Assembly (NCBI RefSeq): GCF_000177215.2
Contig: NZ_CM001368.1
Coordinates: 3,169,625-3,233,624 of the forward strand
Length of the DNA stretch: 64,000 nucleotides
DNA from: Solidesulfovibrio carbinoliphilus subsp. oakridgensis
GTDB lineage: Bacteria; Desulfobacterota; Desulfovibrionia; Desulfovibrionales; Desulfovibrionaceae
Direction of reading: 5' to 3'
Numbering within the stretch: the first letter of the stretch is position 1; each line of letters begins with the position of its first letter. A program made the translations under genes and the position numbers. Shown here in pieces: positions 26,093 to 52,211 of this stretch. The notes beneath the pieces are model-generated. The model was not told the DNA's origin. It saw nothing but the letters and a program-made list of their open reading frames with translations, and ran no database searches.

Positions 26093-26102
26093 GAGGCTCA
26101 AC

Positions 26103-31100: not shown

Positions 31101-31826
31101 ATGCCCGGCAAATCAAAACCCAAAGCAGAGTTCGTAGGAAAAGCCATCCTTCCTGCGGAGAAATGTTCCTACGTCTCCGGCCGCGAGGAATGGCTTGAAC
31201 GCTATGGCAGCTATATCCAACGGGCTCGCCAGTGGCGGCTGGTGGCGTTTGGGTGCCTCGCCATCACGGGGATCTCGATCGCAGGGAACGTGATCCAGGC
31301 CGGGCAGCAGAAAATCGTCCCCTATGTCGTCGAGGTGGACAAACTGGGCCGGATCGCGGCTGTGGCCCAGGCCTCGGAAGCATCGGCCACGCCGACCCGG
31401 GTGATCCAGGCTACGCTGGCGGATTTTGTGGTCAACTGGCGCACCGTCACTGCTGATCTGGATTTGGAAAAGCGACTGCTGGAGCGACTTTCCTACTACG
31501 TCACCGGAGCGGCAAAGGGTCAGATGCGCCAGTGGTACGAGATCAACAATCCCTATGACAGGGCCAAAACCAGTCTGGTCCAGGTCTACGTCAAGAGCCT
31601 CCCTTCCCCGGTCAGCGTCGATTCCTGGCGGGTGGAATGGGATGAAGTCACCCGCAATCACAGCGGTGTCCAGATTTCCAGCGAATCCTACCAAGCAACC
31701 CTCACGATCCAGATGCAGCCGCCAACCACGGACGCCCAGGTCATCCGAAACCCTGGGGGCATCTACGTTGTGGCGATGTCCAGCTCCACGATCATGGAGC
31801 CCACCACCTCTACCTCCCGCAAATAG
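31101..31826 (+). CDS. trbF: TrbF, VirB8-family protein
   Basis: 241 aa; GAGGAG precedes ATG 31101. A cytoplasmic N-terminus, one membrane helix (WRLVAFGCLAITGISIAGNV), then the periplasmic VirB8 fold with VVEVDKLGR near the membrane and QMRQWYEINNPYDRAK in the middle. It links the inner-membrane complex to the TrbG/TrbI core. GC-rich, unlike trbJ/trbL just upstream. Confidence 0.93.
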   Translation: MPGKSKPKAEFVGKAILPAEKCSYVSGREEWLERYGSYIQRARQWRLVAFGCLAITGISIAGNVIQAGQQKIVPYVVEVDKLGRIAAVAQASEASATPTRVIQATLADFVVNWRTVTADLDLEKRLLERLSYYVTGAAKGQMRQWYEINNPYDRAKTSLVQVYVKSLPSPVSVDSWRVEWDEVTRNHSGVQISSESYQATLTIQMQPPTTDAQVIRNPGGIYVVAMSSSTIMEPTTSTSRK

Positions 31827-31836
31827 GATGCCGCAG

Positions 31837-32781
31837 ATGAACAGGATGCTCCTTACTGTGTCTGGCTTGCTTACCCTCCTGGCCTTCCTCGTCAGCCCAG
31901 GCTGGGCCGACGACAAGGGCAAGGGTTGGGTCCCTGAAGATTATAAGATGGATGCGATGGGAAGCGAGGCGAAACCGGGAAAGCCCCTTGCGCCGCTCTC
32001 CCCTATGGCGGTTTTTGGTCCCAATTCCAATGCTCCGCTCACGGCCCGGGATCGCCAAGCCGTGCAGCTGGCCAGGGACTGGGAGAATACCGGTCCGGCT
32101 CCTATCCAGGCCAATGGCAAGGTGATGTTCGTGTTTGGGGCTTTGACCCCCACGATCATTGGTGCGCCGCTTCAGATTTGCGACGTGGAATTGCAGCCAG
32201 GCGAATCCGTCAATGAGGTGGTTGTCGGGGATTCGGCACGCTGGATGCTGGAGGTGGCCAAGTCCGGCACCACTACGCATATCCTCATTAAACCCGTGGA
32301 CGCAGGACTTTCCACGAGCGCCGTCATTACCACCGACCGCCGGGCCTACCACCTCAGTCTCAAAAGCCAGCGCACGGATCACACTCCCCATATTGCATTT
32401 CTCTACCCTGGAGATGGTGCCGCTCGTCTGCGTGAGAAGGAGGCCAAGGACGCCAAGGAAAAGGAGTTCAAAACGGCCGATGTCGATGGCCAGCCGACGG
32501 ACTTGAGCAAGCTGAACTTCGGGTACGAAATAAATGGCGATGCTCCGTGGAAGCCTCTGCAAGTCTTCGACGATGGCCGCCAGATGTTCATCAAGCTTCC
32601 ACCCGCAGTGCAATCCGGTGACGCTCCAGTGGTTCTTGTCCGCAACGGCGGCCAGGACACCCTGGCCAACTTCCGGATGAAGAACCTGACCCTGCTCGTG
32701 GACGGGGTGTTTCCCGAGGCGAAGCTGATCTCCGGCGTGGGCAGCAAGCAGCAACGTATCACCATCCGTAAAGCGCAGTGA
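31837..32781 (+). CDS. trbG: TrbG, VirB9-family core component
   Basis: 314 aa from ATG 31837 (AGGA upstream; ATG 31828 is the alternative). Signal peptide MNRMLLTVSGLLTLLAFLVS with cleavage after GWA. The VirB9 beta-rich domains include GKVMFVFGALTPTIIGAPLQ and RRAYHLSLKS, and the C-terminal WKPLQVFDDGRQMFIKLP segment is typical. It forms the outer-membrane core ring with TrbH and TrbI. Confidence 0.93.
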   Translation: MNRMLLTVSGLLTLLAFLVSPGWADDKGKGWVPEDYKMDAMGSEAKPGKPLAPLSPMAVFGPNSNAPLTARDRQAVQLARDWENTGPAPIQANGKVMFVFGALTPTIIGAPLQICDVELQPGESVNEVVVGDSARWMLEVAKSGTTTHILIKPVDAGLSTSAVITTDRRAYHLSLKSQRTDHTPHIAFLYPGDGAARLREKEAKDAKEKEFKTADVDGQPTDLSKLNFGYEINGDAPWKPLQVFDDGRQMFIKLPPAVQSGDAPVVLVRNGGQDTLANFRMKNLTLLVDGVFPEAKLISGVGSKQQRITIRKAQ

Positions 32782-32789
32782 GGCTGGCG

Positions 32790-34211
32790 ATGCGAAGCAC
32801 TTTTCCTCTTCTTGTTGTCCTGACCCTCCTGGTGCTTCCAGGGTGCGCCGCCATGCGCGGATCTCGCACCGATACCGGCGGCATGACGGCCTATGACGGC
32901 GTGAGCGCCGATTACCCCGGTGATGCCCAGACACTGGCCGCTTCAGTTGCCGAGGAGATGGCCCACCGTTATCCGCCGGCCCGGACAACCCTGGCTCTGG
33001 TCAAAACGGATTCCTCTTTCGGCCAGGACCTCGAATCCGCCCTGAGGGAGCGGGGCTTCCCCGTAGCCGCTCCGGACGCTTCGGGAATGCGTGTCGCGTA
33101 CACCCTGGACGTCATCCATGATGAGACTCCCCCGACCTGTTATGTGCGGGTCCGGACGTCGGATGGCGTTGCGTTTGGGACGTTACGCGCTTTGACCGGT
33201 GAAACCCGGCGGACCAAGGGAGATGCTCCCGCCGAAGGCGTGCCTTCGGTAGCGGCTTTGGCTCCGGAGCCCCGTCCACTCAACGATGCGCTTCCCGTAG
33301 TCGTGTCAGCTCCCCGGCCGGCACCGGTGATGCCGGCCAAGCTGGAGCGCAGGGCCGGATCTGCTCGGGACGAGCGTGCCGACGTGCCGGTACGCGTGAA
33401 GAGCACGGCGGCCAAGATCGCCAAACGTAACAAGGTGCCCGTGGGGGAGTTCTGCCGCCTCAACGACGTGGCTCCGGACACGGTCATTCCCGCCGGGCGG
33501 CGGGTGCTTCTCCATGAGCCCCATGAGCCTGCGGTTGCACTTACGCCACTGCCCGAGCCGGCCCGGGCCGGCTCTCCTTCCGAAGTTCGCCAGCCCAAAT
33601 TCTCGCCGATCCGGACCTTGGCAGCGGCGGACGCGCCGCCGACGATTCAGCCGGCGGTTGCGGTCAGGCCGGTGGAAACTCCTCCCGCCCCTGTAAAGGC
33701 TCCCGATCCTGCTCCGGCGGTTTCTTCTCCTCCTGCCGGGCCTTCCCCTGTCTCCAAATTGCTTTCGGAAAATGCGGCTCCAGCCAAATCCGCCTCCAAT
33801 CCGCCTGCGCCAGTTCCGGCAGCCCCGGCAACTGCGACGCCGGTTCAGCCCGTGAGCGCTCCTGTCGTGTCCGCTCCGACTCCTCCTGTCGTTTCTTCCA
33901 AGCCGGTGGAACATTCGACCGCGCCTGCGGGAGAAACGGGTCAGACGCCGCCACCCATTGCACCCGTCGCGCCGGAGTGGGCCATCGACCGGGGAAGTCT
34001 CCATTCGCAGCTCGAAACGTGGGCCACCCGGGCTCAATATCAACTGATCTGGAAGGCCACGCATGATTTTGATCTGGAGGCCCGGGCCAGCTTTGGGGCG
34101 GACTTCGTGTTGGCGATTCAAAAGCTTTTCTCCGCGTTGCAGCACAGCGGGCACGCCCTGCGGGTAACCGTCTACCAGGGAAATAACGTTTTGGAAGTCG
34201 CAGATAATTAA
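32790..34211 (+). CDS. TrbH-LysM-PilL/TcpQ fusion lipoprotein
   Basis: 473 aa from ATG 32790 (GTG 32778, overlapping the trbG stop, is the alternative). Lipoprotein signal MRSTFPLLVVLTLLVLPGC, then a TrbH-like domain (~20-125: SVAEEMAHRYPPARTTLALV, YTLDVIHDETPPTCYVRVRT). A LysM-like segment follows at ~205-245 (STAAKIAKRNKVPVGEFCRL...VIPAGRRVLL), then a ~140-residue Pro/Ala linker. The last ~80 residues match the TcpQ/PilL domain (SLHSQLETWATRAQYQLIWK...FDLEARASFGADF...ALRVTVYQGNNVLEV). It joins the mating-channel lipoprotein to the type IVb pilus secretin partner in one chain, at the junction of the trb and pil gene blocks. Confidence 0.78.
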   Translation: MRSTFPLLVVLTLLVLPGCAAMRGSRTDTGGMTAYDGVSADYPGDAQTLAASVAEEMAHRYPPARTTLALVKTDSSFGQDLESALRERGFPVAAPDASGMRVAYTLDVIHDETPPTCYVRVRTSDGVAFGTLRALTGETRRTKGDAPAEGVPSVAALAPEPRPLNDALPVVVSAPRPAPVMPAKLERRAGSARDERADVPVRVKSTAAKIAKRNKVPVGEFCRLNDVAPDTVIPAGRRVLLHEPHEPAVALTPLPEPARAGSPSEVRQPKFSPIRTLAAADAPPTIQPAVAVRPVETPPAPVKAPDPAPAVSSPPAGPSPVSKLLSENAAPAKSASNPPAPVPAAPATATPVQPVSAPVVSAPTPPVVSSKPVEHSTAPAGETGQTPPPIAPVAPEWAIDRGSLHSQLETWATRAQYQLIWKATHDFDLEARASFGADFVLAIQKLFSALQHSGHALRVTVYQGNNVLEVADN

Positions 34212-34248
34212 ACGCTTAGCTTTTGAAAGAAGAGGGAAGGAGAGAGAT

Positions 34249-35862
34249 ATGATACGCGGTTTTGGAATAATATTAGCGATGCTTATTGTCGCAGGCTGTA
34301 CGCCAAAGGCAAGAATAAATCCGGAAATTGAAGCGCAAGGTGACAGTTTTCGGGAACAATCCCGGTCTAAATCGGTTCAGGTTGTGGATGAGCCCTATAT
34401 GGGCGCTCGAATCATACCGTTGCAGCCGACCAATCCTGTTTTGGATAAGCACGTGATGCTGCGCCGAAAAGGGTCTTTGCTCAACATTGCGGCAGTCATC
34501 AGCGAGTTGACGGCCTTATCGGTCCAGGTCGCTCCAGATAGTGACGAAAATTCCAAAAAATCCCCATCCGAGCCGCATTCCCACGCACTTCCGGACGCGG
34601 CCGGTGCCGGACAGGGCGGCTCCGGGGTCAACCTGGAACTGGAGGCCTTGCTCCAAAAGAGCGGAGGCGGTGGCCACGGATTGGAGTCCCTCACGACGGG
34701 ACTCGGTGATGGGAAAACGCTTTCCATATCTTATGAAGGAAAACTGCGAGGTTTACTTGATACAGTAGCCATGCAGTCTGGATATGGTTGGGATTATGAC
34801 CAAAAAACGAACATCATCACCTTTGCGAAAATGGTGGTCCGGACATTTACGATCGCGGGCGCGCCGGGAACCATTAGCTATCGCAATCAGTTGACGAACA
34901 AATCCAAAGAAAATTCCTCGTCCGGCGTCAGCAGCTCCAATGTCAATCAAACAGTTCAGCGAGAAGACACGAGCGCCCAGAATGCGCAGCTCAATAGCAC
35001 GTCGCTTAATTATGATATCTGGGCAGACACTGAAAGAAACATCAAGGCATTGCTGACGCCCAAAGGGGTGGTGGTCAGCAATCAGTCGGCCGGCTCCATG
35101 ACGGTGCGCGACACTCCGGACAGTGTGCGCCGGGTGGCGACCTATGTTGAGGATCTGAACGTTCGCCTGTCGCGGCAGGTGGCCCTCAACGTCCAGGTCT
35201 GGTCGCTTAACGTCACGGATAACGCCGAGGCAGGGATCAATCTCCAGGCCCTTTTTCAGGACTCGAACCTCACCGTAGCCGCCGGAAGTTTGAGTGAGGT
35301 CGGGGCCATCAACACCGCCACGGCGACGATCCTTTCCGGGAAGCTGAAGGACAGCGCCGGGGTCCTCAAAGCTCTCGGGCAGTGGGGCAAGGCGAGCCAA
35401 GTCACGTCCGCCGGCGGCCTTGTGATGAGCGGCCAGCCGGTGCCGGTCATGGCCGTGCAGCGGCATGCCTACCTGGCTGGCGTCGGCAAATCGACCACGG
35501 ATTACAGCCAGACCACGGAAGTGACCCCAGGGGAGGTGACCACGGGATTTGCCATGACGGTCATTCCCCACATCCTTGATCAGCGCCGGGTAATACTCCA
35601 GTACAACTTGAACCTTTCGTCGCTCGACGAAATGAAAGAGTTCACGACTTCGGACGTGACGATCGAACTCCCGCAAGTTTCCACCCAGGCATTTTCCCAA
35701 AGATCGACGATGAAGTTGGGGCAGACATTAGTCCTCTGCGGTTTTGAAAAGGAGTCGAATAGCAATAAAAAGACGTTAGGCTTCATTAATGCCTCTCGTG
35801 CTTCGGATTATGGTCGCACCCTGCTGGTCATCACCATACGATTAGAATCGGCCGACGTGTAG
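34249..35862 (+). CDS. pilN: PilN, lipoprotein secretin of the type IVb (thin) pilus
   Basis: 537 aa. Lipoprotein signal MIRGFGIILAMLIVAGC; an N-domain around LNIAAVISELTALSVQVAP; a Gly/Ser-rich insert; and the secretin domain in the C-terminal half (VALNVQVWSLNVTDNAEAGI, GEVTTGFAMTVIPHILDQRR, TLVLCGFEKESNSNKKTLGF). This is the outer-membrane pore through which the thin pilus extends. It is the IncI PilN family by length, lipobox and position. Confidence 0.9.
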   Translation: MIRGFGIILAMLIVAGCTPKARINPEIEAQGDSFREQSRSKSVQVVDEPYMGARIIPLQPTNPVLDKHVMLRRKGSLLNIAAVISELTALSVQVAPDSDENSKKSPSEPHSHALPDAAGAGQGGSGVNLELEALLQKSGGGGHGLESLTTGLGDGKTLSISYEGKLRGLLDTVAMQSGYGWDYDQKTNIITFAKMVVRTFTIAGAPGTISYRNQLTNKSKENSSSGVSSSNVNQTVQREDTSAQNAQLNSTSLNYDIWADTERNIKALLTPKGVVVSNQSAGSMTVRDTPDSVRRVATYVEDLNVRLSRQVALNVQVWSLNVTDNAEAGINLQALFQDSNLTVAAGSLSEVGAINTATATILSGKLKDSAGVLKALGQWGKASQVTSAGGLVMSGQPVPVMAVQRHAYLAGVGKSTTDYSQTTEVTPGEVTTGFAMTVIPHILDQRRVILQYNLNLSSLDEMKEFTTSDVTIELPQVSTQAFSQRSTMKLGQTLVLCGFEKESNSNKKTLGFINASRASDYGRTLLVITIRLESADV

Positions 35863-35864
35863 CC

Positions 35865-37124
35865 ATGCGCCGTGTAATCATTGAACAGCGACCATGGGCC
35901 GTGGGGCTCCAGTGGGTGACGGGCACCGCCAAACCGACCATTGCGGAATTGCGCCAGGATGCTTCCAAGATCGATCCGACGCTCGACATGGTGGCCTACC
36001 GCCAACGGCAACATGGATTTGCCGCCAGCGGTGGGGCCGTTCGTTCTTGGTTGGGAGTCCGCGCCCTGGCGGCAGCCGTCCGCGTGACGTCCCCCTCCTT
36101 TCTTGGACTCTTTTGCCTGGAGGATCAGCAGGAGGGCACCTTCTGGTGGGTCTATGCCGTTTCCCAGGCTTTGATCGTCGGCATGGGCGACCAGGTCTTC
36201 GCGGCCCGGGCCGAGGCCGAGGAATGGATTCAGTCTCTCAAGGGCCTCCTCGTGACGGACTTCGAGGAGATCGTGGTGTGCGAGACGGTGGAGGATAGCC
36301 TGCGCTGGCTCACTCCTCTCATCAGCACCGGGCCCTTTGGCCGTATCCGCAGCCGGACAGGTTCCTTGCAGCCTTTGCGGCCCGTCCCGGGCCAGCGAGG
36401 CAGATTGATCGTCATGGGGAGCATCGCAGGAACGCTTCTTTTCGGGGGGTATGGCCTCAAGCTCTTCCTGGCCCACCGCGCCGGCCAGCAAGCCATGGAA
36501 GCGGCCCGGGTCGCCATGATCAATAAAGAGCAGCGCAAAAAGGAGCTGCAAGCACACCCGGAACGGTACTTTCCTCAACCGTGGGTGAAAGCGCCCGAAG
36601 TGGGGGATCTCGTACCGCGTGGTATTTCCGCTCTGCTTGAGCTTCCTACCGCCGCCTCAGGGTGGACGCTGGATCGGGCCGCCTATGACGGAAAGGCCGT
36701 GGTGGCCACCTGGGGGCATAAATCGGGCGCGGATTATGTCCACCTCCCCTTTGCCGCTCACCTTGAAACGCCGCAAAAGGCCGTTTCACGCCTGCCGCTT
36801 GCCGGTCCTTTCAACCCGCGTCTCGCCAGACCTCTCCTGTCCCGGGAGCAGTGCACACGGATGCTCTATGACGGCACCCAGGTCCTGGGGGCGCGGCTGC
36901 GGCTGAGCTACAGTGTTCCGGAAAAAAAACGTGTGGAGAATGTGGAAGTCACGGCTCCGTGGGCTCGTGGTCAATGGGAACTCAGTGAGATCCCATCCGC
37001 CATGATGCTCGATGGGGGCCTTCCGGAAATTTTCACGCGGATACCAGGGCTGATTCTGGAGACCCTCGCTTTGGAGAAAACCATCTGGGTCATCAAAGGA
37101 AGCGTTTATGTCACAGCCAACTAG
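35865..37124 (+). CDS. pilO: PilO, type IVb pilus inner-membrane accessory protein
   Basis: 419 aa starting 3 nt after pilN. N-terminal ~180 residues cytoplasmic (LGLFCLEDQQEGTFWWVYAV near 83-102), one membrane helix (GRLIVMGSIAGTLLFGGYGL near 184-203), then a periplasmic part with WTLDRAAYDG and LRLSYSVPEKK. This is the PilO/PilL-type bitopic organisation of IncI pili. It overlaps pilP by 17 bp. Confidence 0.85.
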   Translation: MRRVIIEQRPWAVGLQWVTGTAKPTIAELRQDASKIDPTLDMVAYRQRQHGFAASGGAVRSWLGVRALAAAVRVTSPSFLGLFCLEDQQEGTFWWVYAVSQALIVGMGDQVFAARAEAEEWIQSLKGLLVTDFEEIVVCETVEDSLRWLTPLISTGPFGRIRSRTGSLQPLRPVPGQRGRLIVMGSIAGTLLFGGYGLKLFLAHRAGQQAMEAARVAMINKEQRKKELQAHPERYFPQPWVKAPEVGDLVPRGISALLELPTAASGWTLDRAAYDGKAVVATWGHKSGADYVHLPFAAHLETPQKAVSRLPLAGPFNPRLARPLLSREQCTRMLYDGTQVLGARLRLSYSVPEKKRVENVEVTAPWARGQWELSEIPSAMMLDGGLPEIFTRIPGLILETLALEKTIWVIKGSVYVTAN

Positions 37125-37773
37125 CCAACACAGCCAAAAGAAAAGAGTGCTCTGGGTTCTTGGATGCGCAGCGGCGACACTGGTGCTGGTCCTGGCCGGC
37201 GGATGGGCCATCTGGGGCTGGCAAGACCCTCCGAAAGCGCCTGCGTCGAAACTTCCGGCGAAAGCCAAGGAGGTCTCATCCTTACCCTCCCAAGCTCCAG
37301 GGGGACCAGCGCCGAAGGTGGCCGAGATGCCGGAGATCCACGCCGCGACGGCGACGGTGCCTGATCTTACGTCTCAGGTCCCTCAGGTCCCTGTGGCTGG
37401 GAACCTGGGGAAAATGACAGAACTCCGGGCCACCCTCGATGAGGTAAAGCTCCGGGTGGCCATCGAGCAGGAAAGGGAGAAATTGGCTCCCAAACTCCCG
37501 GTCGCCGTGCCCCAAGCGAAGACCCCGCAAACACCCATCATGCTTCCTCCGGAGCCACCCAAAGCTCCGGCGACACCGAAAAAAGAGACTCCAGTCGTTG
37601 TGTCCATGCAGGGCATGGACGGACGGACCAGCGCCACGATTCGTGGCAGCTCCGGACGATTGCAGACGGTACGGCCTGGCGACCCATTTGAAGGCGGCGT
37701 GGTCAATACCATCACCCGCGAGGGCGTCTTGGTGCGTCGCGGCAACACTTCGACCACCTTAACGTTTGAGTAG
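37108..37773 (+). CDS. pilP: PilP, type IVb pilus assembly protein
   Basis: 221 aa. One N-terminal membrane helix (VLWVLGCAAATLVLVLAGGW), a long Pro/Ala/Lys-rich linker, a short helical stretch (MTELRATLDEVKLRVAIEQE), and a C-terminal beta-domain (RLQTVRPGDPFEGGVVNTIT) as in PilP-like secretin-docking proteins. It bridges the inner-membrane platform to the PilN secretin. Confidence 0.85.
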   Translation: MSQPTSQHSQKKRVLWVLGCAAATLVLVLAGGWAIWGWQDPPKAPASKLPAKAKEVSSLPSQAPGGPAPKVAEMPEIHAATATVPDLTSQVPQVPVAGNLGKMTELRATLDEVKLRVAIEQEREKLAPKLPVAVPQAKTPQTPIMLPPEPPKAPATPKKETPVVVSMQGMDGRTSATIRGSSGRLQTVRPGDPFEGGVVNTITREGVLVRRGNTSTTLTFE

Positions 37774-37782
37774 GTTACCATC

Positions 37783-39318
37783 ATGGAATCATTTAGCTTT
37801 CTTGATGTTGTTCCGGAAACCCTCCGAGGTCGCGTGGCTCTGGTCGGCGGTGTCCTCCATATGTCGGCTGAACTTATGGGAAACCTTGAGATGGTTTCCT
37901 TTGTCGGGGGACTGCAACGTCGGGGGATACGCGAATACGCGTGGCACAAGCCGGATGAATTCGACGCCAAATATCGTGATCAGGCCTCGATTACGGGCCA
38001 AGGTGAGAATGCCGTTCAGCAATATGCCATTGATCTTTTGCTTTATGCGTTTGAAGCCGGTGCATCGGATATTCATTTGATGGATTTCGGTTGCTATACC
38101 ATGATTCGATTTCGCTGTCTGGGCATGCTGTCTGACTATACGCAACTCAATGCGGACCTGGGAAAGCGGCTCGTTGCCTGCATTTATCAAAAGCTCTCCC
38201 AATCGGCGGATGCTTGTTTCTCCCCGACTGAGCGCCAGGATGGCCGCATTGCCAAGCGGGAGTACCTGCCGTCGAGCGTTCACTCGGTGCGTGTTCATTC
38301 GGAACCGATCGAGTGTTCGCAGGCGGAGGGAGGCGTGGGAACTTCCATGTCCCTGCGGCTTTTGTATGATGCCACCTCGGCCAAAGGGTCCTTGCAGGAG
38401 CGCATGACAGCCTTGGGTTTTACGAAAGATCAATGTGATACGGCACAATTTTTAACTCGTCGGACAGGCCTTTCCATTATTTCCGGTCCCACCGGCCATG
38501 GGAAATCGACTTTCCTCAAGCACGTCATGGAATCCATGACGCAGCGAAATCCCGAAAAAGCCTATTTCAGCATCGAAGATCCACCGGAATATCCTTTGAT
38601 GGGTGTCCGGCAGGTGATGATCAGTTCCAATGACCGGGAACATCGGGCTGAGGCCTACTGCGATGCGATTGCCGGAGCAATGCGTTCCGATCCGGATGTC
38701 CTGATGATCGGTGAAATCCGTTATGAAGAGGCTGCCGTGGCAGCCATCGACGCGGCGCTCACGGGCCATTCGGTTTGGGCAACGATCCATGCAAATAACG
38801 CCATGGGAATCATTGCCCGTTTGGTCAGTATCCTGGCGACGCATTATCAAAATCCCCTGGAGCAGTTGTGTGATCACAATGTCTTGGCCGGACTGGAATA
38901 CCAGCGACTCCTGCCGATGCTTTGCCCGAACTGTAAGATCCGACTCTTCGATATTCCGGTTGGTGAACGGGAACGCTACCTTCCGGAAGATGTCGCCATT
39001 CGTCTGAGTCGGGCGCTTGATGATCGTGAAAGCGTCTTTGTCCGAGGTGCTGGCTGCGAAAGATGCCGGAAGCGCGGTCTGATCGGTCAGACGGTCGCAG
39101 CCGAGATCATTGCCACCGATCAGGAAATGCTCGGCTACTTGCGAGAGGGCAACTTTCCCCGCGCCCAGGAGTATTGGCTCCAGAAAAAAGGCGGCCACAG
39201 CTACATCGATCATGCCATCGATCTCATTCAAAGTGGTCTGGTTGATCCCTACATCGCCGAGGAACGTCTCGGAGTGCCCCTCAATTTCAACCAGGTCTTC
39301 GTGGCCGGGGGGCGTTGA
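37783..39318 (+). CDS. pilQ: PilQ, pilus extension ATPase (GspE family)
   Basis: 511 aa. Walker A SGPTGHGKSTFL (~residues 233-244), Asp box SIEDPPEYPL, Walker B DVLMIGEIRYEEAA (~305-318), His box SVWATIHANNAMG, and a CxxC pair of the GspE zinc domain (CPNC ~381, CERC ~424). In R64-type systems PilQ is the only motor; here a second one exists at 40869. Confidence 0.93.
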   Translation: MESFSFLDVVPETLRGRVALVGGVLHMSAELMGNLEMVSFVGGLQRRGIREYAWHKPDEFDAKYRDQASITGQGENAVQQYAIDLLLYAFEAGASDIHLMDFGCYTMIRFRCLGMLSDYTQLNADLGKRLVACIYQKLSQSADACFSPTERQDGRIAKREYLPSSVHSVRVHSEPIECSQAEGGVGTSMSLRLLYDATSAKGSLQERMTALGFTKDQCDTAQFLTRRTGLSIISGPTGHGKSTFLKHVMESMTQRNPEKAYFSIEDPPEYPLMGVRQVMISSNDREHRAEAYCDAIAGAMRSDPDVLMIGEIRYEEAAVAAIDAALTGHSVWATIHANNAMGIIARLVSILATHYQNPLEQLCDHNVLAGLEYQRLLPMLCPNCKIRLFDIPVGERERYLPEDVAIRLSRALDDRESVFVRGAGCERCRKRGLIGQTVAAEIIATDQEMLGYLREGNFPRAQEYWLQKKGGHSYIDHAIDLIQSGLVDPYIAEERLGVPLNFNQVFVAGGR

Positions 39319-40385
39319 TGCGCAGGTATTATGGGGAACTCCTGGCCCGCTTGGCCTTTAGCGGTTCAGTCCGCCAGCGTGTGTGGAAAAAACTGGCGGC
39401 CCAGACGCGGCACGGAATGAGTCTGGATCAAAGCCTTCGGCAGATGCGATCGCGGGCCCTGTCACGACGATCTCCCCTGTCTTTCGTCTATACCCGGGTC
39501 CTCGAATATCTTGGCCTCGGCCATAGCCTGGGCGCGAGCCTGACGGAATTTGCGTCGTCGGAAGAGGTGATGCTCATTTCAAGTGGCCAGCGCTCAGGCC
39601 GGTTGGCCGAAGGCCTTGAGCTGGCCGCGGATCTCCTGGCTGCCCGTCAAAAAATCATCAAGGCGGTGGTCGGCTCCCTGGCCTATCCTGTCTTTCTCTT
39701 TGGCATGTGCATCGTCTTATTGCTGGTCGTCTCCATCATGGTGATGCCCAAATTCGCCATGCTGTCCGATCCTCGCAAGTGGCAAGGCGCACCAGCGCTC
39801 TTTTATAAAATGACTTCCTTTGTGGCTTCCGTATCAGGAACCATCACGCTCGTGGTTCTTTTTTGTCTATTTTTGGCGTCAATCTTTACGTTACCTTATT
39901 GGACGGGAAAGTTTCGACTGTATGTTGAAAAAATACCTCCTTGGTCAATTTATCGAATCACCGTGGGCTCTGTGTGGCTCTATACATTATCGACTCTTAT
40001 GCGCTCAGGTATTCAACTCTCTCATATCCTGGAGAGCATGATAAACTCGGATACAATTACACCATATCTGAGAGAGCGAATTGAAGCCATTTCGTTGGAA
40101 AACGGAACCGGAAAAAATCTTGGTGAGGCAATGTACGATTGCGGATTGGACTTTCCGGACCAGGAACTGATCGATGATCTCCGGGTCTATGCTCTTCTCC
40201 CCGGTTTCTATCGTCAAATGCATCAACTGGCTCAAGGGTGGATGTATGATGGCGTCGATCTTGTCCAAAGGCAATCGCGGGTCATGAATCTGATGGGGAT
40301 TGTCTTGATTACTGGAGTTGTCTCGGTTTTGGCGGTTGCTATCGGTTCTTTGCAATCACAACTCTTACCGACTGGAGCGTATTGA
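39318..40385 (+). CDS. pilR: PilR, inner-membrane platform protein (GspF family)
   Basis: 355 aa from ATG 39318, one base shared with the pilQ stop. The GspF domain appears twice: VMLISSGQRSGRLAEGLELA near residues 84-103 and the SIYRITVGSVWLYTLSTLMR region. Three membrane helices, including FLFGMCIVLLLVVSIMVMPKF and ITLVVLFCLFLASIFTLPYW. It anchors the PilQ motor. Confidence 0.9.
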   Translation: MRRYYGELLARLAFSGSVRQRVWKKLAAQTRHGMSLDQSLRQMRSRALSRRSPLSFVYTRVLEYLGLGHSLGASLTEFASSEEVMLISSGQRSGRLAEGLELAADLLAARQKIIKAVVGSLAYPVFLFGMCIVLLLVVSIMVMPKFAMLSDPRKWQGAPALFYKMTSFVASVSGTITLVVLFCLFLASIFTLPYWTGKFRLYVEKIPPWSIYRITVGSVWLYTLSTLMRSGIQLSHILESMINSDTITPYLRERIEAISLENGTGKNLGEAMYDCGLDFPDQELIDDLRVYALLPGFYRQMHQLAQGWMYDGVDLVQRQSRVMNLMGIVLITGVVSVLAVAIGSLQSQLLPTGAY

Positions 40386-40386
40386 C

Positions 40387-40866
40387 ATGACTCTTCTTGA
40401 AACACTTGGCGCTATTCTGGTTGGTCTCATTGTTCTGGCTGGAGCTGCATTGGGCCTTAATGCCGCTTTTTCATCCTCGAAGTTAGGTGAAACGGAGCAA
40501 AACCTTGTGACACTTCGAATGCAGGTCCAGCATATGTTTTCCGGAAATGCCGATTACGCCGGTCTTGATAATGCCCTGGCCCTCAAGGCTGGAGTGGTTC
40601 CGAAGTCATTTATTAAAGGTGAATATTTGAAGAATGCTTTTGGTGGTGAAATTACGTTGGCACCTGTTAGCACAGATGCTGGTTTCTCCATCGAACTTAC
40701 CAGCATCCCGCAGGAAGAATGCACCAAGTTGGCAAAGTTTCAGACAGATGCTTGGCTTGGAGTCGATGTGAATGGTCACGAGGTGAATCGTCTGTCCGAT
40801 ACTGTGGTGTCCGACATTGTGGGATTTTGTGAAGACAGCAATACGATCCTTTTTACAGCGAGATAG
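40387..40866 (+). CDS. pilS: PilS, major type IVb pilin, apparently leaderless
   Basis: 159 aa from ATG 40387, with GGAG 9 nt upstream. The protein begins MTLLETLGAILVGLIVLAGA: the sequence that is normally the mature N-terminus of type IVb pilins (Met+1, Glu+5), with no leader and no Gly-1. An in-frame upstream extension exists but would put Asp at -1. Two Cys in the C-terminal half (EECTKLAKF, VGFCEDSN) are positioned for the usual pilin disulfide. No prepilin peptidase is found in the element. Confidence 0.88.
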   Translation: MTLLETLGAILVGLIVLAGAALGLNAAFSSSKLGETEQNLVTLRMQVQHMFSGNADYAGLDNALALKAGVVPKSFIKGEYLKNAFGGEITLAPVSTDAGFSIELTSIPQEECTKLAKFQTDAWLGVDVNGHEVNRLSDTVVSDIVGFCEDSNTILFTAR

Positions 40867-40868
40867 TT

Positions 40869-41885
40869 ATGCTGGTTGATCTGTCGTTTTCTGATTTGAT
40901 CATTTTACCGGACGGGTCCGCCCGGCTCAAGGGATGTCCGGAAACAGGACAGCAACTTATTCCCGTCCCAGCGGACTGTACGGATGAGATCAAGGATTTG
41001 CCCAATCGATTGACGGACGCCGTGTTGTCTCGTCGCCATATGGACCCCGCTACAGGAATGCGCGTGGAATCTGGAACCATTCGATTTCACCATCAAGGCA
41101 TCCATTATCGGGTGGCCGACATTCAAGATGTCAACTCGGGTCGGACATGGTTTTTACGGCGATTGGCTGAGCGTGTCCCTGACCTGACCGGATTGGGATT
41201 ACCTCCCTACCTCTGCGAGTGGCTGCTGCTGGAGGATCAACGGCAGGGGCTCGTCTTGGTTGCCGGCGCGCAGGCCTCGGGCAAAACCACGACGGCCAGC
41301 GCCTTGGTGGCAGGCCGGTTGATGCGCCATGGCGGTCATGGCGTCACGTTCGAGAACCCGGCGGAACTCCCCTTGGGCGGCAGTTGGGGGGAGCACGGCC
41401 ACTGTTTCCAGACCGAGATCCAAGGCGAGCACGAATTGCCCGAGCAAATCAAGCGCGCCCACCGCTACGCCTCTCCGAATATCATTTTTATTGGAGAAAT
41501 CCTCACCAAGTATGCAGCGCTGGAAGCCTTGCGCGTGGCTCTCGGCTCCAAACAACAATTGGTGGTCGCTACGATCCACGGGCTTGATGTCATCGCGGCA
41601 TTGGAGCGGCTTATCAATTGGGCGCAAGAATTTGATGGTAATAATGCTTGCGAAAATTTGGCCAACTCACTTTTGGCTATCATTCTTCAAGACCTCGAAG
41701 GTGAGCCCAAATGGCAGAAGATTTCCCAATACCTGCTTCTCCCTTTCGTGGCTCCGAACCCGGAAAGTTCCATGCGGGTAAAAGGCATTCGGGCCAAATT
41801 GCGGGAAAGGCAATTTCACTCCCTCCATGATGACATGCGTGAACTTCGCAATCGGATCGCGGATCACGGCCTGAAGGCTATATAA
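40869..41885 (+). CDS. PilT/PilB-like ATPase, second pilus motor
   Basis: 338 aa. Walker A VAGAQASGKTTTAS (~residues 131-144), a VTFENPAELPLG Asp-box equivalent, Walker B-like NIIFIGEILTKYAALEAL, and LVVATIHGLDVIAALERL as the His box. No Cys-tetrad domain, and much shorter than PilQ, as in retraction motors. It replaces the lytic transglycosylase (PilT) and prepilin peptidase (PilU) that follow pilS in R64. Retraction function is inferred, not shown. Confidence 0.82.
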   Translation: MLVDLSFSDLIILPDGSARLKGCPETGQQLIPVPADCTDEIKDLPNRLTDAVLSRRHMDPATGMRVESGTIRFHHQGIHYRVADIQDVNSGRTWFLRRLAERVPDLTGLGLPPYLCEWLLLEDQRQGLVLVAGAQASGKTTTASALVAGRLMRHGGHGVTFENPAELPLGGSWGEHGHCFQTEIQGEHELPEQIKRAHRYASPNIIFIGEILTKYAALEALRVALGSKQQLVVATIHGLDVIAALERLINWAQEFDGNNACENLANSLLAIILQDLEGEPKWQKISQYLLLPFVAPNPESSMRVKGIRAKLRERQFHSLHDDMRELRNRIADHGLKAI

Positions 41886-42313
41886 TGAAACCCATGGCAT
41901 TCCTTATGATCCTTCTCGGCGTCATGGCCATGATCTACGTTGGCAACATGACGTCCCAGGATGAACAGCGGACAGAAGCGATAGCCCTTAACTTCGCTCA
42001 TTACCGCAATGAGGTGCACCGCTATGTATTTGAAGGTCACAAGGCTGCCGGCGACATTGCGGTCTCATCGCTGGACCTGCCTACGGGGTGGACCATGTTG
42101 CGCCCCTGGCAGGCCCGCATCGAGGCGGGATGTCTCTATGTGTGGGGAGAGGCCTCGCCGGAGGAGATCGCGGCCGTGCGGGATCTCTACTGGGGAAGCT
42201 ACGCCATCGGCCGCGCGGCCGGGGGCAGGCTTGATCCCGGATACGGCGGCACAACCCCAATCCCCTCGTTCGTCGCCGCGGACTCGCTCGTGAGCGTCGT
42301 CAGCGTGGAGTAA
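41885..42313 (+). CDS. pilM: PilM, small type IVb pilus protein
   Basis: 142 aa. N-terminal hydrophobic segment MKPMAFLMILLGVMAMIYVG, then a soluble domain with ALNFAHYRNEVHRYVFEGH and a Gly/Ala-rich tail. Size and N-terminus match IncI PilM, although in R64 the gene lies upstream of pilN. It overlaps the preceding gene by one base and ends 3 nt before pilV. Confidence 0.75.
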   Translation: MKPMAFLMILLGVMAMIYVGNMTSQDEQRTEAIALNFAHYRNEVHRYVFEGHKAAGDIAVSSLDLPTGWTMLRPWQARIEAGCLYVWGEASPEEIAAVRDLYWGSYAIGRAAGGRLDPGYGGTTPIPSFVAADSLVSVVSVE

Positions 42314-42316
42314 GGC

Positions 42317-43429
42317 ATGAAATTAATCGAAACCATCGGGGCCTTGTTGATCCTGGCCATCATGCTCCCCGTGCTTTTCAATCTGTGGTCGCTGGGTTCC
42401 AACGAAATCGAAAAGCGCCAAGCCGCCGACCAACTGGCGGCGGTGACCAAGGCCGCTGCCGGTTATGTCCGCAAGCACCAGACCGATCTTCTGGCGCAGG
42501 CCACGGCCAGCAGCGGCCCATCCATCAGTACCGACCCGTTGGTGGCCGAAGGCTTCCTGCAGGATGGTTTTCAGGGACACAATGTCTGGGGGCAGACCTA
42601 CCAGATCAGCTTTCGGCAGCCTTCAGCCAATGCCCTCCAGGCCATCATCCTGACCACGGGCGGGCGCGGCCAGGACACCAACGACCCGCGATTCGCCTCT
42701 GCCCTCGTTCCTTCAGCGGCTGCGATGGTCGGCGGAAGTGGCGGCTATATTCCTACCGGTGATGTCCCAGGCCAGTCGCCGGACTCCCTGCGGGGCGCAT
42801 TTGGCGGATGGATAGTCACCCTGGCCAACTTCGGGATCGCCTCACCTGGTGCCGGCCACCTCGGGGCCTTGACCACCTTCGACTCCAGCAGTCTCGGTCA
42901 GGACTTTCTTTATCGGGTAGCCGTGCCCGGCCACGCCGAACTCAACGCCATGCAAACCGACCTGGATATGACGGATCATTCGATTCGAAACGTCCATGAG
43001 CTTCAATTTACTGTCCGGACGCTTGATGGTGAAACCTGTGATGAATCAACTGAAGGACGGACGTTTTTGGACAAAGATCAGGGGTTGTACCTGTGTCGCA
43101 ACGGCAAGTTGGAGGTCATAGGCGATAGCGGAAACAGTTTTTTGCTGAAAAATGCCACCTTGGCCAAGGATGGCGACCTCATCACAAAGCCCGTTTGTGC
43201 GCCCGGGACCGAGACTGCTCCTCAGATTTTTGTCGCTCCGTCACTTGCCGCTGCCGGCGCGGAAGCTCCTCCCATCACCGCCTTCCAGGCCTGGGCCATC
43301 AGCAAAAGCGAAACAGAATGGGAGGTGCATCTGCGGCTTTTGACCACGGACGATAACTTGGGCTGGATCAATCCTGGCTCGGATTATGGCCGCATCATGG
43401 TTTGCACGTTGTGCGGCAAAGGAAATTGA
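42317..43429 (+). CDS. pilV: PilV, minor (tip) type IVb pilin, leaderless
   Basis: 370 aa from ATG 42317 (GGAG, 6-nt spacing). It starts MKLIETIGALLILAIMLPVL: Met1-Glu5 as in a mature type IV pilin. The in-frame codons just upstream are TAA GGC, so a longer leader is impossible. The body is Gly/Ala-rich beta-structure, as in PilV adhesins, and the C-terminus carries CTLCGKGN. No shufflon recombinase or inverted C-terminal cassettes are visible. Confidence 0.85.
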   Translation: MKLIETIGALLILAIMLPVLFNLWSLGSNEIEKRQAADQLAAVTKAAAGYVRKHQTDLLAQATASSGPSISTDPLVAEGFLQDGFQGHNVWGQTYQISFRQPSANALQAIILTTGGRGQDTNDPRFASALVPSAAAMVGGSGGYIPTGDVPGQSPDSLRGAFGGWIVTLANFGIASPGAGHLGALTTFDSSSLGQDFLYRVAVPGHAELNAMQTDLDMTDHSIRNVHELQFTVRTLDGETCDESTEGRTFLDKDQGLYLCRNGKLEVIGDSGNSFLLKNATLAKDGDLITKPVCAPGTETAPQIFVAPSLAAAGAEAPPITAFQAWAISKSETEWEVHLRLLTTDDNLGWINPGSDYGRIMVCTLCGKGN

Positions 43430-43431: not shown

Positions 43432-44664
43432 ATGGAAGATCCAAATCAGTACATCGAAACAAAGAGAATGCGAAAATGGCCACTCTACGTGGCGATTGCC
43501 GGGATAACGCTCGGGATAGGCATCATGGTCTTTGCCATTGAACATTCCGGGAAGAAAAAAGCGGAAGAAGCCAAAAAGCCGGAAATTCAAATGCGCGACG
43601 ACAAGCCCCTTGTCAGCACGGACGGGGGGATGGGGTTGGCCAATCCGCCAGCGCCGGCACCTGCTCCGGCCCCGGTCGAGCCAAAGCCGATTGTCGTGGT
43701 CAAGGACAAGGACCCCCGCGACACGTCGCGCGAGCTGGACGATCTGCGCCGGCAGAAAGTTCAGGCCGCCATGACCGCGCTTTCCTCTCCGCTCGTGATC
43801 CGTAAGGTTTCGGAAAAGGAAGATAAAAAATCAGACGGCAAACAACTGGTCGAGAAGACGATGGACGGCTCACGTCCGGACTCGCGCGAGAGGCCTTCCG
43901 ACCGGCTTGACCAGCTGGATCGTCTTGAACGTCTCGCGGGCGCTACGAAAGGCGGGGAGTATAATCCCGCTGCCGACCGGGACAAGGAGGCATTTTTCGA
44001 CCGGGCCAAGGTTTCGGATCGTCAGTGGATCTCGCCCAACACCCGGATGGCGGGGCACCGGTTCGAAGCGAAAACCGGCACAGTGATCCCGGCCTTGATG
44101 ATCGGCGGCATCAATTCGGATCTGCCCGGCCAGATCATCGCCCAGGTGGCCCAGAACGTCTACGACACGGCGGATGGGCGCTACCTGCTCATCCCGCAGG
44201 GTGCGCGCCTCTATGGGGTCTATGACTCCAGGATCATCTATGGGCAGTCCCGAGTCCTTGTTGCCTGGAACCGCATCATCTTTCCCGATGGCTCGGCCAT
44301 TACCCTCGAATCCATGCCCGGTGCGGACAGCGCCGGCTATAGCGGCTTCGAGGATCAGGTCAATAACCACTATTTCCGCATCTTTGGCGGTGCGCTCCTC
44401 ATGTCGCTCGTCTCCGGTGGCGCTTCCTGGGCCGTCGATTCCGTCACGCCAAGCGACAACTCAAACAATGGGTCTCCCACGCTGCAACAACAGATGTCGT
44501 CCTCTCTGGCAACCCAGCTTGGCCAGACCACCTCGCAGCTCCTCTCGAAAAACATGTCCATCAAGCCGACGCTGGAAATTCGTCCTGGGTACCGCTTCAA
44601 CGTCATCGTGACCAAGGATCTGGTCTTCAGGGCACCTTATCGGGAGCAGCGTCATGAACCATGA
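43432..44664 (+). CDS. trbI: TrbI, VirB10-family core protein
   Basis: 410 aa from ATG 43432 (AAAGGA upstream). A cytoplasmic N-terminus, one membrane helix (WPLYVAIAGITLGIGIMVFA), a Pro-rich periplasmic stretch (NPPAPAPAPAPVEPKP), then the conserved C-terminal domain (GTVIPALMIGGINSDLPGQI, YLLIPQGARLYGVYDSRI, NRIIFPDGSAITL). It spans the envelope and completes the core with TrbG and TrbH. The pil block is inserted between trbH and this gene. Confidence 0.95.
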   Translation: MEDPNQYIETKRMRKWPLYVAIAGITLGIGIMVFAIEHSGKKKAEEAKKPEIQMRDDKPLVSTDGGMGLANPPAPAPAPAPVEPKPIVVVKDKDPRDTSRELDDLRRQKVQAAMTALSSPLVIRKVSEKEDKKSDGKQLVEKTMDGSRPDSRERPSDRLDQLDRLERLAGATKGGEYNPAADRDKEAFFDRAKVSDRQWISPNTRMAGHRFEAKTGTVIPALMIGGINSDLPGQIIAQVAQNVYDTADGRYLLIPQGARLYGVYDSRIIYGQSRVLVAWNRIIFPDGSAITLESMPGADSAGYSGFEDQVNNHYFRIFGGALLMSLVSGGASWAVDSVTPSDNSNNGSPTLQQQMSSSLATQLGQTTSQLLSKNMSIKPTLEIRPGYRFNVIVTKDLVFRAPYREQRHEP

Positions 44665-46666
44665 CGTGGTGCAATACGGCCTCGGTGGCAGCAAGATCCG
44701 CCGACGTACCCTGCGCTGGGGCTATCTATTTTTCATGGTTGTCCTGGCCCTGGCCAGCATGAGCCGGGCCACGCAGCTCGTGGCCTCCCATTTCGGGCCT
44801 CAGGCGGCCCTGGGGCAGCCCTGGGGCCAGGCGCTGGGAATCACATGGTATGCACCGTGGAAAATCTTGTCCTGGCATTCGTGGGGTGTCGAGCACGAGG
44901 CCGTGAAGCAGGCCGAATCCCAGGCGCAGATGCTGTTTCTGGTGCCGCAGTTCGTGGTGCTGGGATTTGCCTTGCTCGGCATGCGTAAACCAAAGGCAGG
45001 GAGAGATATACACGGGTCGGCCCATTGGGCGACCGAGCAGGAAATTCAGGAGATGGGACTCCTGGACGGCCGTGGGGTGTACCTCGGCGGTTGGGTCAAA
45101 CGCTTTGAGGGAATTTCCGCCCTGTACCGACGGCTCTGTGGATATGCTTCCGAAACACAACGCTATCTACGCCATAATGGTCCGGAGCACGTCCTCCTTT
45201 ATGCGCCTACCCGGTCCGGCAAGGGTGTAGGCGTCATTCTTCCCACGCTCCTTTCTTTCCCGGATTCCGTAGTGGTTTTGGACATCAAAGGTGAAAACTG
45301 GGCGTTGACGTCGGGCTGGCGGCAATCGCAGGGACAAAAAGTCCTCCAATTCGATCCTTCCGATGCCGGAGGAGGATCGGTGAGCTTCAACCCTTTGGAT
45401 GAGGTTCGTCTCGATACCTTGCTCGCCATCCCCGACGTCCAAAATATCGCCACCATGGTCGTCGACCCGGAAGGCAAGGGTCTTCAGGACCATTGGAGCA
45501 AGGCCGGATTTGCTTTTATCGCCGGAGCCTTGTTGCATTGTCTGGTCATGGTGCGCCATCGTGAGAAGCGCACGGCCACCCTTCACGATCTTGGGACGAT
45601 GTTGGCTGACGAAAGCCGGTCCATTGATGATCTTTTTGAAGAGATGCTCAAAACGGATCATGCCGCGAAGGTGAAGGAGTGCTTTCCGAAAGACCCGACC
45701 GGGGGAGATGAAATTCATACCTTTATCGCTTCTTCTGCGAGGGAAATGCTTAACAAAGCTCCCAATGAAGCAAGCGGAGTCGTTTCTACCGCTCTGGTCA
45801 ACTTGGCTCTTTATCGTGATCCTGTCGTTGCCCTTAATACTTCAAGAAGTGATTTCCGAGTTCAGGACCTCATGAATCATGAGACTCCTGTGAGCCTTTA
45901 TCTCGTCATGAGTCCGGCCGACGTCAACCGGCTGCGCCCTCTTATCAGATTAATCCTCAATCTCATTATTTCGCGGATCTGCGAGAAGATGGAATTCATA
46001 GAAGGCGTCCAGGTAAAACCGAAACGCCGCCTGCTGTTGCTGCTCGATGAGTTTACGAGCATCGGTAAAATGGAAATTGTCAACAAATCCATTGCCTATA
46101 CTGCCGGCTACGGAATTAATTATCTTATTGTTATCCAGAATATTGAGCAGTTAAACGATACGTATGGAAAGGAAAACGGCATCAAGGGCAATTGCCATGT
46201 GCGGGTTGCATATGCCCCAAATACCCTTGAGACGGCCCGGGAACTCTCGGAAATGACCGGGAAGACCACCGTCGTGAGCGAGAAGACCTCATTGTCTGGC
46301 TCCCGGAGCGGGCACTTGAAAAATGCTTCCGTAAGCCTTTCCGAAACAGCCCGCCCTTTGTTGACTTCCGATGAATGCCTGCGGTTGCCAGGACTCCAGA
46401 AGAAGGGGGACCGAGTGGTCAAGGCTGGCGACGTGCTCATTTTTGTGGCCGGCCGGTCCGCGATTTACGGACGGCAAATTCTCTACTTCCTGGACCCCGT
46501 ATTCTCCAAACGGGTCAAGGTGCCGGCTCCCGCCAAATCCGATTCCCTATGCCCGGCCGTCGCTGGCCAGGAAGCCAAGCCCGCCATGCAGACGGAACAG
46601 CCGGAGGCCGAAAGCGGCTATGCCGCTTATCTCAAAAAGCAGGACAAGCAGGTGGAATCGGCATGA
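44654..46666 (+). CDS. traG: TraG, VirD4-family coupling protein
   Basis: 670 aa, overlapping trbI by 11 bp. Two N-terminal membrane helices (LRWGYLFFMVVLALASM; MLFLVPQFVVLGFALLG), GSAHWATEQEI, Walker A YAPTRSGKGVGVILPTLL (~183-200) and Walker B RRLLLLLDEFTSIGKM. It brings the relaxase-DNA complex to the channel. Its presence implies a relaxase, which is not in this window. Confidence 0.96.
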   Translation: MNHDVVQYGLGGSKIRRRTLRWGYLFFMVVLALASMSRATQLVASHFGPQAALGQPWGQALGITWYAPWKILSWHSWGVEHEAVKQAESQAQMLFLVPQFVVLGFALLGMRKPKAGRDIHGSAHWATEQEIQEMGLLDGRGVYLGGWVKRFEGISALYRRLCGYASETQRYLRHNGPEHVLLYAPTRSGKGVGVILPTLLSFPDSVVVLDIKGENWALTSGWRQSQGQKVLQFDPSDAGGGSVSFNPLDEVRLDTLLAIPDVQNIATMVVDPEGKGLQDHWSKAGFAFIAGALLHCLVMVRHREKRTATLHDLGTMLADESRSIDDLFEEMLKTDHAAKVKECFPKDPTGGDEIHTFIASSAREMLNKAPNEASGVVSTALVNLALYRDPVVALNTSRSDFRVQDLMNHETPVSLYLVMSPADVNRLRPLIRLILNLIISRICEKMEFIEGVQVKPKRRLLLLLDEFTSIGKMEIVNKSIAYTAGYGINYLIVIQNIEQLNDTYGKENGIKGNCHVRVAYAPNTLETARELSEMTGKTTVVSEKTSLSGSRSGHLKNASVSLSETARPLLTSDECLRLPGLQKKGDRVVKAGDVLIFVAGRSAIYGRQILYFLDPVFSKRVKVPAPAKSDSLCPAVAGQEAKPAMQTEQPEAESGYAAYLKKQDKQVESA

Positions 46667-50210: not shown

Positions 50211-52211
50211 ATGAAAAACCTCCTGATCGTCGAATCTCCCGGCAAGATAAAAAAGATCCAGGGATTCCTGGGAAACGACTGGCAGGTCATGGCCAGCGTG
50301 GGTCATGTCCGTGACCTTCCCCCGCATGATCTTGGCATCGACGAGGCGGATCTTCGGCCCCGCTACGTCCCTACCGAGAGGGGAAGGACTGTCCTGGCCA
50401 AGCTGGCCAGGGCGGTGGAACTCGCGGACTCGGTTTTTTTGGCGACAGACCCTGACCGCGAGGGGGAGGCCATCGCGTGGCATCTGGCGGATGCCCTGGC
50501 CCTGCGAAATCCCCAGCGCATCACCTACACCGAAATCACGGAGCAGGCCGTCAAAGGCGCGATTTTAAAGCCTCGCCAATTGGATATGCGGCTGGTTGCC
50601 GCACAGGAAGGCCGTCGCGTCTTGGATCGGCTGGTGGGGTACAAGGTTTCGGGGCCCCTGTCTCGCTTGGCCGGCAGAAAATCGTCTGCCGGTCGGGTAC
50701 AGAGCCCGGCCGTGCGCCTGGTGGTCGAACGTGAACGCGAAATCCGAGCCTTCAAGGTGACCACGCATTATGGGGTGGATCTCATCTTCGACGCCTTGGA
50801 CAACATCACGCCGGGTTGGAAAGCCGAGTGGAAGGTGAAGCCGTGGCTGGAACCCGGCCAGGAGTATCTGCTCGATAAGGCGCTGGCCACGACGGTGGCC
50901 GGCGTACGGAGGGTCACGGTCCTGAGCTGCGAAGAATCCGAGAGCCGCGCCGCGCCGCCAGCGCCGTTCACCACGTCCACTTTGCAGCAGGCGGCCTCGA
51001 ATGCCCTGAAGATGTCTCCCAAGGAGACCATGGGACTCGCGCAACGGCTGTATGAGGCTGGCCACATTACCTACATGCGTACGGACTCGCCAAATTTGAG
51101 CGAGGAGGCGGTGGCTTCCATCCAGGAATACTGCCGCAGCCGGAACTGGCCGGTCGTGGCCAAGCCCAGGCACTGGAAAAGCAAGGAAGGCGCGCAGGAG
51201 GCCCATGAGGCCATCCGCCCAACGCACATCGAGATCGAAGAGGCCGGCGAAACCGAGGGAGAGAAGGCCCTTTATGCGCTTATCCGTCAGCGCACGCTGG
51301 CCAGCCAGTTGGTGGATGCGGTTTTTGCCGTACGCACCGTGCGGCTTGTCGGGAATCCTGTTGAGGATCGGGGCCCCGAGTTCGAGGCGAAGGGGCGGAC
51401 CCTGACCAGTCCCGGTTGGAAAGTTGTCCTGGGAGGGGATCAGGCTGACGAAGGAGAAGAGGAGGCGGAAAATCCTGTGCCTAAACTCCAGGCCGGCAGC
51501 CAACTGACGGTAGGCGAGGGGAAGGTGACGATCCATAAGACCAAGCCCCCGGCGCGCTTTTCCGAAGCATCACTCGTCAAGGCCCTGGAAGATCGCGGCA
51601 TCGGACGTCCATCCACGTACGCCGCCATCCTGGAGAACATCCTGCGCCGGGAATACGTGCGGCTGGAAAAGCGCAAGCTGGCCCCCACCCCGGCTGGTGA
51701 GGACGTGGTTGATGCGCTGCTTGGCCGCTTCGGATTCGTGGATTTTTCCTACACGAAGGGGATGGAAGAAAACCTGGACGCCCTGGCTGCCGGGCAAGCC
51801 CGGTACCTCGATGTCATGCGCCAGTTCACCTCCGGGCTCGACGGGGAACTCAGCGCGTTTTTGGCCACGATCAACCATGCCTGCCCCGAATGCGGAAAGC
51901 CTCTGCGGCGGATATCCAAGGCATCTGGCAAGGACGGCCGGGGCGGATATGATTTTTGGGGATGTACGGGATACCCGGATTGCCGGGCGACCTTTGCCAA
52001 TGAAGATGGCAAGCCGGGAGGTCGTATAGAGCCCCGGCAGAAGCTTCCCCTCAGCGCTGTCAAATGCCCGGAATGCGGAAAGCCCCTGGTCCACCGCATG
52101 AAGGAAGGAGCCAAGGGATATAATTTTTGGGGGTGCTCGGGTTACCCCAATTGCAAAGTCTCCTTTCCCGATGCCGGCGACCGGCCTGACATGCAGGGAG
52201 ACAAGTCATGA
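50211..52211 (+). CDS. DNA topoisomerase type IA (TopA-like) of the transfer module
   Basis: 666 aa. TOPRIM (MKNLLIVESPGKIKKIQGFL; DPDREGEAIAWHL), catalytic Y288 in YMRTDSPNLS, EAHEAIRPTH, and the RPSTYA block. Two C-terminal zinc ribbons (CPECGKPL...GCTGYPDC and CPECGKPL...GCSGYPNC). Shorter than chromosomal TopA (~865 aa in E. coli). IncP plasmids carry a topoisomerase (TraE) in the same operon; it relaxes or decatenates transferred DNA. Confidence 0.93.
   Translation: MKNLLIVESPGKIKKIQGFLGNDWQVMASVGHVRDLPPHDLGIDEADLRPRYVPTERGRTVLAKLARAVELADSVFLATDPDREGEAIAWHLADALALRNPQRITYTEITEQAVKGAILKPRQLDMRLVAAQEGRRVLDRLVGYKVSGPLSRLAGRKSSAGRVQSPAVRLVVEREREIRAFKVTTHYGVDLIFDALDNITPGWKAEWKVKPWLEPGQEYLLDKALATTVAGVRRVTVLSCEESESRAAPPAPFTTSTLQQAASNALKMSPKETMGLAQRLYEAGHITYMRTDSPNLSEEAVASIQEYCRSRNWPVVAKPRHWKSKEGAQEAHEAIRPTHIEIEEAGETEGEKALYALIRQRTLASQLVDAVFAVRTVRLVGNPVEDRGPEFEAKGRTLTSPGWKVVLGGDQADEGEEEAENPVPKLQAGSQLTVGEGKVTIHKTKPPARFSEASLVKALEDRGIGRPSTYAAILENILRREYVRLEKRKLAPTPAGEDVVDALLGRFGFVDFSYTKGMEENLDALAAGQARYLDVMRQFTSGLDGELSAFLATINHACPECGKPLRRISKASGKDGRGGYDFWGCTGYPDCRATFANEDGKPGGRIEPRQKLPLSAVKCPECGKPLVHRMKEGAKGYNFWGCSGYPNCKVSFPDAGDRPDMQGDKS

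Follow-up and report, generated by a model that had tools for sequence, protein, structure and literature searches.

The window analysed here is a 64-kb stretch of the genome of the sulfate-reducing bacterium Solidesulfovibrio carbinoliphilus subsp. oakridgensis (G000:C1:3169625-3233624; host genome of 4.2 Mb in three contigs) that encodes a P-type type IV secretion system (T4SS) together with an R64-type set of pilus genes, all on the plus strand. Pfam searches identified VirB2-4, VirB6, VirB8-10 and a coupling protein: virB2, virB3, virB4, virB6, virB8 and virB9 (25778-32781; TrbC, VirB3, CagE, TrbL, VirB8 and CagX families) lie upstream of the pil genes, and virB10 and the traG/virD4 coupling protein gene (43432-46666; PF03743 and PF02534) lie downstream of pilV. 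The whole pil cluster (32778-43429) sits inside the virB operon, with virB9 on one side and virB10 on the other, which suggests that pilus and T4SS genes are expressed together. A small minus-strand ORF within this plus-strand operon (29601-29873) has a lipoprotein-like signal (IQGCQSDQ) and is a possible entry-exclusion lipoprotein. Elsewhere in the conjugation region, a tail-fibre-like protein with repeated Ser/Gly/Thr-rich units is encoded at 52208-53167, with a 54-nt direct repeat at 52880-52987. The nearest named relatives of the element are found in Desulfovibrio sp. DV, with further members in D. piger and other Desulfovibrionaceae.

The pil cluster begins with a PilL-like TcpQ-domain protein with LysM (32778-34211; PF10671 and PF01476), followed by the secretin PilN (34249-35862; PF00263), PilO (35865-37124; PF06864), PilP (37108-37773; TIGR03021, E 4e-8, at the cut-off), the assembly ATPase PilQ (37783-39318; PF00437, E 2e-53) and the platform protein PilR (39318-40385; PF00482). 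After pilS come a second T2SSE-type ATPase gene, nearest the PilT/PilU family (40869-41885; PF00437; TIGR01420 at E 2.5e-21, below the curated cut-off), pilM (41885-42313; PF07419) and pilV. Secretin, PilO, PilP, assembly ATPase, platform protein, PilM and PilV are thus recognised together and in order by Pfam and NCBIfam models, as in R64-type systems. ATPase genes in a similar position are annotated on plasmids of N. vulgaris, Stutzerimonas, P. fluorescens R124 and Acidiphilium.

With the R64/IncI thin pilus (type IVb, PilL-V) the element shares the PilN, PilO, PilP, PilQ, PilR, PilS, PilM and PilV families, and its PilV matches annotated IncI-type shufflon adhesins. R64 has a prepilin peptidase of its own, PilU (Akahane et al. 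2005, as cited in PMC10191384), and a paper on the R64-related IncI2 plasmid TP114 describes its PilS and PilV as preproteins with leaders (PMC9045228). Compared with R64, whose traits are taken here from papers, the window element lacks both the pilin leaders and pilU and carries a PilT-like ATPase gene between pilS and pilM. In reviews, possession of a leader that a dedicated peptidase cleaves off is a defining feature of type IV pilins, required before their assembly, and the prepilin peptidase is one of the few components conserved in all type IV filament machines (PMC4471445, PMC10191384).

PilS, the type IVb major pilin (40387-40866; 159 aa; PF08805, E 1e-19), has the sequence MTLLETLGAILVGLIVLAG and begins M1-T-L-L-E5, its ATG coding for residue +1. 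PilV, a predicted tip adhesin or minor pilin (42317-43429; 370 aa; Shufflon_N PF04917, E 3e-23), has the sequence MKLIETIGALLILAIMLPV and begins M1-K-L-I-E5. The acidic residue at +5 is therefore present in both, and in both the first codon specifies the residue that is usually exposed only once a leader has been cleaved. A Shine-Dalgarno sequence, GGAG, precedes pilS at 40374-40377 (GGAGG in the relatives L033-L041), and another precedes pilV within a short segment (42307-42313) that comprises GGAG (42307-42310) and an in-frame TAA (42311-42313). This TAA, at pilV codon -2, terminates pilM. As an earlier note on this DNA had pointed out, it rules out a PilV leader; MKLIE, MKIIE or MNLLS starts are conserved among PilV relatives. 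PilS likewise has no class III signal peptide, that is, a hydrophilic leader ending in Gly or Ala, and none can be encoded, given the stops or missing upstream starts in close relatives.

Comparison with solved pilins places PilS in the same mature register. Residues 1-5 (MTLLE) are identical to residues 1-5 of mature TcpA (PDB 8uhf) in a phmmer alignment whose overall match is weak (E 0.08). The AlphaFold2 model (pLDDT 91) shows the type IVb pilin fold, with a homologous globular domain and an N-terminal helix in a lollipop arrangement. It superposes from residue 1 on solved type IVb filament structures, those of CofA (9iuf; Z 13.6, 154 residues, 1-159 on 1-208) and TcpA (8uhf; Z 12.8, 149 residues), the matches spanning residues 1-158 or 1-159, and also matches Salmonella PilS (3fhu; Z 16.4). 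Both TcpA and CofA are synthesised with a leader, which is cleaved off by a peptidase of their own system; in the window PilS, by contrast, translation begins at the mature residue itself. PilM, an N-terminal transmembrane protein, lacks a prepilin-type leader in every relative inspected, including systems with leadered PilS and PilV. Its AlphaFold2 model predicts a pilin-like architecture, a helix (residues 2-49) with a beta-sheet, that matches solved PilM (3eoi; Z 12.0) and, with middling scores, TcpA (8uhf; Z 6.2 over 132 residues) and C. difficile PilW (Z 6.2). Going by this model, PilM is possibly a leaderless minor pilin of R64-type systems.

For 60 related stretches from the same order, and for named relatives, we inspected the 5' ends of both pilin genes. 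Of 47 leaderless pilS and 37 leaderless pilV genes, 27 each have no in-frame ATG, GTG or TTG upstream of the mature start, and a Shine-Dalgarno sequence stands at the right distance in 40/47 and 33/37, respectively, compared with 9.8% of random positions. The possibility that a leader is nevertheless made from a hidden start, through an upstream non-AUG codon or a programmed frameshift, draws on a TTG in the window that lies in frame 23 codons upstream of pilS (40318). Initiation there would place Asp at -1, not Gly or Ala, and in relatives with 86-90% identity to the window (L033-L035) an in-frame stop precedes pilS by 15 codons, with no intervening start codon; the TTG extension is therefore unused, and we discarded it as the pilS start. 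Since, in addition, pilV codon -2 is a stop and the same leaderless starts also turn up in remote lineages, where stops stand 2-5 codons upstream (L043, L064, L067, L084, L153, L157 and L158), we regard a hidden start as extremely improbable. The earlier note had named homologues whose leaders align to upstream DNA here as evidence against direct synthesis in mature form; leadered homologues do exist, and nothing upstream in the window or its close relatives encodes a leader. Its reading that both pilins are made directly in the mature register holds, and the starts are not an artefact of start-codon calling.

Both genes are under strong purifying selection that includes the first 25 codons. 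Between PilS of the window and of L033, these codons differ by 16 synonymous changes and one nonsynonymous change, and across genera the whole-gene dN is far below dS. An acidic residue occupies position 5 in 32 of 47 leaderless PilS proteins and falls within residues 2-6 in 43; of the leaderless PilV proteins, 17/37 have no acid in their first ten residues. Since Glu5 has been lost in some leaderless PilV proteins, the chemistry between N-terminus and Glu5 is not identical in all. This loss, together with the nesting of the pil genes between virB9 and virB10, from which a T4SS-accessory role is conceivable, lends some weight to the main rival reading, that the leaderless proteins are stable pilin-like proteins of the inner membrane that support the T4SS or scaffold the envelope and form no extracellular filament. 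Against such a role, the full assembly apparatus is kept (secretin, two ATPases, platform protein, PilO and PilP), the adhesin domain of PilV is conserved, and the purifying selection covers the very codons that encode the polymerisation helix. We therefore consider a purely membrane-bound role unlikely, and favour a filament.

A home-made HMM found no Peptidase_A24 in the 64-kb window, and a whole-genome Pfam search placed A24 domains only elsewhere, in agreement with the note's statement that the element has no PilU/PilD-type peptidase. Processing by the S26 (TraF-like) peptidase of the element was set aside, as there is no leader to cleave. A whole-genome search for GspO/PilD, which the note had proposed, showed that the host is not peptidase-free: it encodes, outside the element, a canonical PilD with CxxC motifs and a second A24 protein, together with nine class III prepilins. 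Leader loss is therefore a property of the element and not a deficiency of the host. The same conclusion follows from G062, G220 and G290, each of which holds a leadered element with its own A24 gene and a leaderless element on different contigs.

Among the relatives, A24 genes turned up on elements at eleven places (some confirmed by the home-made HMM), for example in L063, L066, L073 and L079-L081, and always next to leadered pilins. No leaderless element examined has a nearby peptidase gene, and none was found on the named plasmids on which both pilins are leaderless. Leadered systems on Stutzerimonas, P. fluorescens R124 and N. vulgaris plasmids are also without A24 and presumably use the host peptidase. 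Leadered relatives of the same family, such as L066, L073 and L076-L081, have a PilV homologous to that of the window; PilS is homologous in L066, L073 and L076-L078 and was not found by HMM in L079-L081. Unlike the window element, these relatives have leaders with Gly or Ala at -1 and an A24 gene adjoining pilV.

At the genome level, we restricted the tally to hosts at least 90% complete. All 24 genomes with a leadered PilV are A24-positive (none is negative); genomes with leaderless PilV only comprise nine with A24 and 12 without. Fisher's test of leader state against A24 gives p 1e-5, and the data hold only 2-4 phylogenetically independent pairs, too few for significance once corrected for kinship. 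Two leadered elements occur in A24-negative genomes, in assemblies 82% and 87% complete. The 12 Desulfovibrionaceae genomes without detectable Peptidase_A24, three of them single-contig, thus lack the dedicated peptidase that counts as a core component of the type IV filament superfamily; the host of the window has A24 outside the element. In the three single-contig genomes (G112, G165 and G166), no A24 exceeded the cut-off, even in a relaxed search (E<=10), and no N_methyl prepilin was found at all. Each has only two T2SSF domain matches, the number expected from a single PilR. A candidate degenerate A24 pseudogene in G176 (E 0.005) proved to lie in an ordinary open frame in which no peptidase motif was seen, and we treat it as a chance match.

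Class III prepilins and A24 are entirely lost from several Desulfovibrio genomes that carry these elements, which could also be read as decay, in which the loss of pilU left unprocessable pilins and the truncated starts are a step toward pseudogenes. The reading frames are intact, however, with dN/dS far below 1 across genera, and recurrent leader losses fall exactly at +1 or within a few residues of it, not at random positions, so that we hold decay to be very unlikely.

Leader state was mapped by parsimony on an IQ-TREE phylogeny of the PilV core (77 sequences). The tree requires seven changes of state for PilS and five for PilV, counts that come from a single gene tree in which branches are long and horizontal transfer is possible. 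As other relatives retain classical leaders, leader loss is, judging by this tree, recurrent, and the existence of leadered homologues makes it derived or at least labile. The window element falls inside a large group in which both pilins are leaderless; L082-L085 form a second such group beside the leadered L076-L078. The earlier note had proposed to see whether loss of the leader and of pilU always go together. They do not: in one genus (g13) and in Mailhella, elements without pilU combine a leaderless PilS with a leadered PilV. The reverse rule was true in every case seen, an element with its own A24 gene having leadered pilins. Leadered PilS with leaderless PilV was not seen among the elements inspected.

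Pairs in which both pilins are leaderless also occur outside the family, in Acidiphilium, Acidocella, another Acetobacteraceae genome, Acidithiobacillus sulfurivorans and Trinickia. Named plasmids with such pairs are those of Acidiphilium multivorum JZ-6, Acetobacter vaccinii, Cupriavidus basilensis (pRK1-1), C. necator H16 (pHG1), C. taiwanensis, Paraburkholderia fungorum and Burkholderia contaminans. Like the window element, pHG1 (L192) encodes leaderless PilS, here two proteins beginning MDGILGR, and leaderless PilV (MEAILGY), and the plasmid carries no A24. It differs in its distant sequence, in having no PilT-like ATPase gene between pilS and pilV, and in an N-terminal acid at position 2. 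The two near-identical pilS genes of pHG1 form a tandem pair (L192, 7364-8456).

Taken together, we consider it quite likely that the window encodes an R64-like type IVb conjugative pilus whose pilins lack the class III leader and are polymerised without peptidase or N-methylation. The note's statement that the locus is consistent with a pilus bypassing processing holds as a statement of consistency; polymerisation without processing, and filament assembly from leaderless pilins as such, are what we infer. Nascent PilS would enter the inner membrane via Sec and, like a processed pilin, keep its N-terminus on the cytoplasmic side. Deformylation, with Met1 kept or removed, would then provide a free alpha-amino group in place of the cleaved N-terminus opposite Glu5, and PilQ and PilR would build the filament from PilS, together with PilV and perhaps PilM, with no peptidase or N-methylation step. 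The likely benefit would be a mating-pair pilus whose assembly is freed from whichever prepilin peptidase a new host has. More broadly, we lean towards regarding these systems as a recurrent functional class of peptidase-independent type IV pili on conjugative elements, in which PilS, PilV and PilM are translated in mature form and the peptidase is dispensable and has been shed repeatedly for host independence.

Our literature search, with most subscription journals outside its scope, found no published precedent for leaderless or peptidase-independent pilins. These elements would be natural exceptions to the peptidase rule, and they come with internal controls, namely leadered and leaderless versions of one pilus within one bacterial family, sometimes on separate contigs of one genome. 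They open several questions to experiment: the purpose of leader removal and of N-methylation, a possible requirement of Glu5 for a processed N-terminus, and the way in which a pilin enters the membrane without a positively charged leader. Searches that define type IV pili by a class III signal peptide or a nearby peptidase miss some conjugative pili, including that of pHG1 in C. necator H16.
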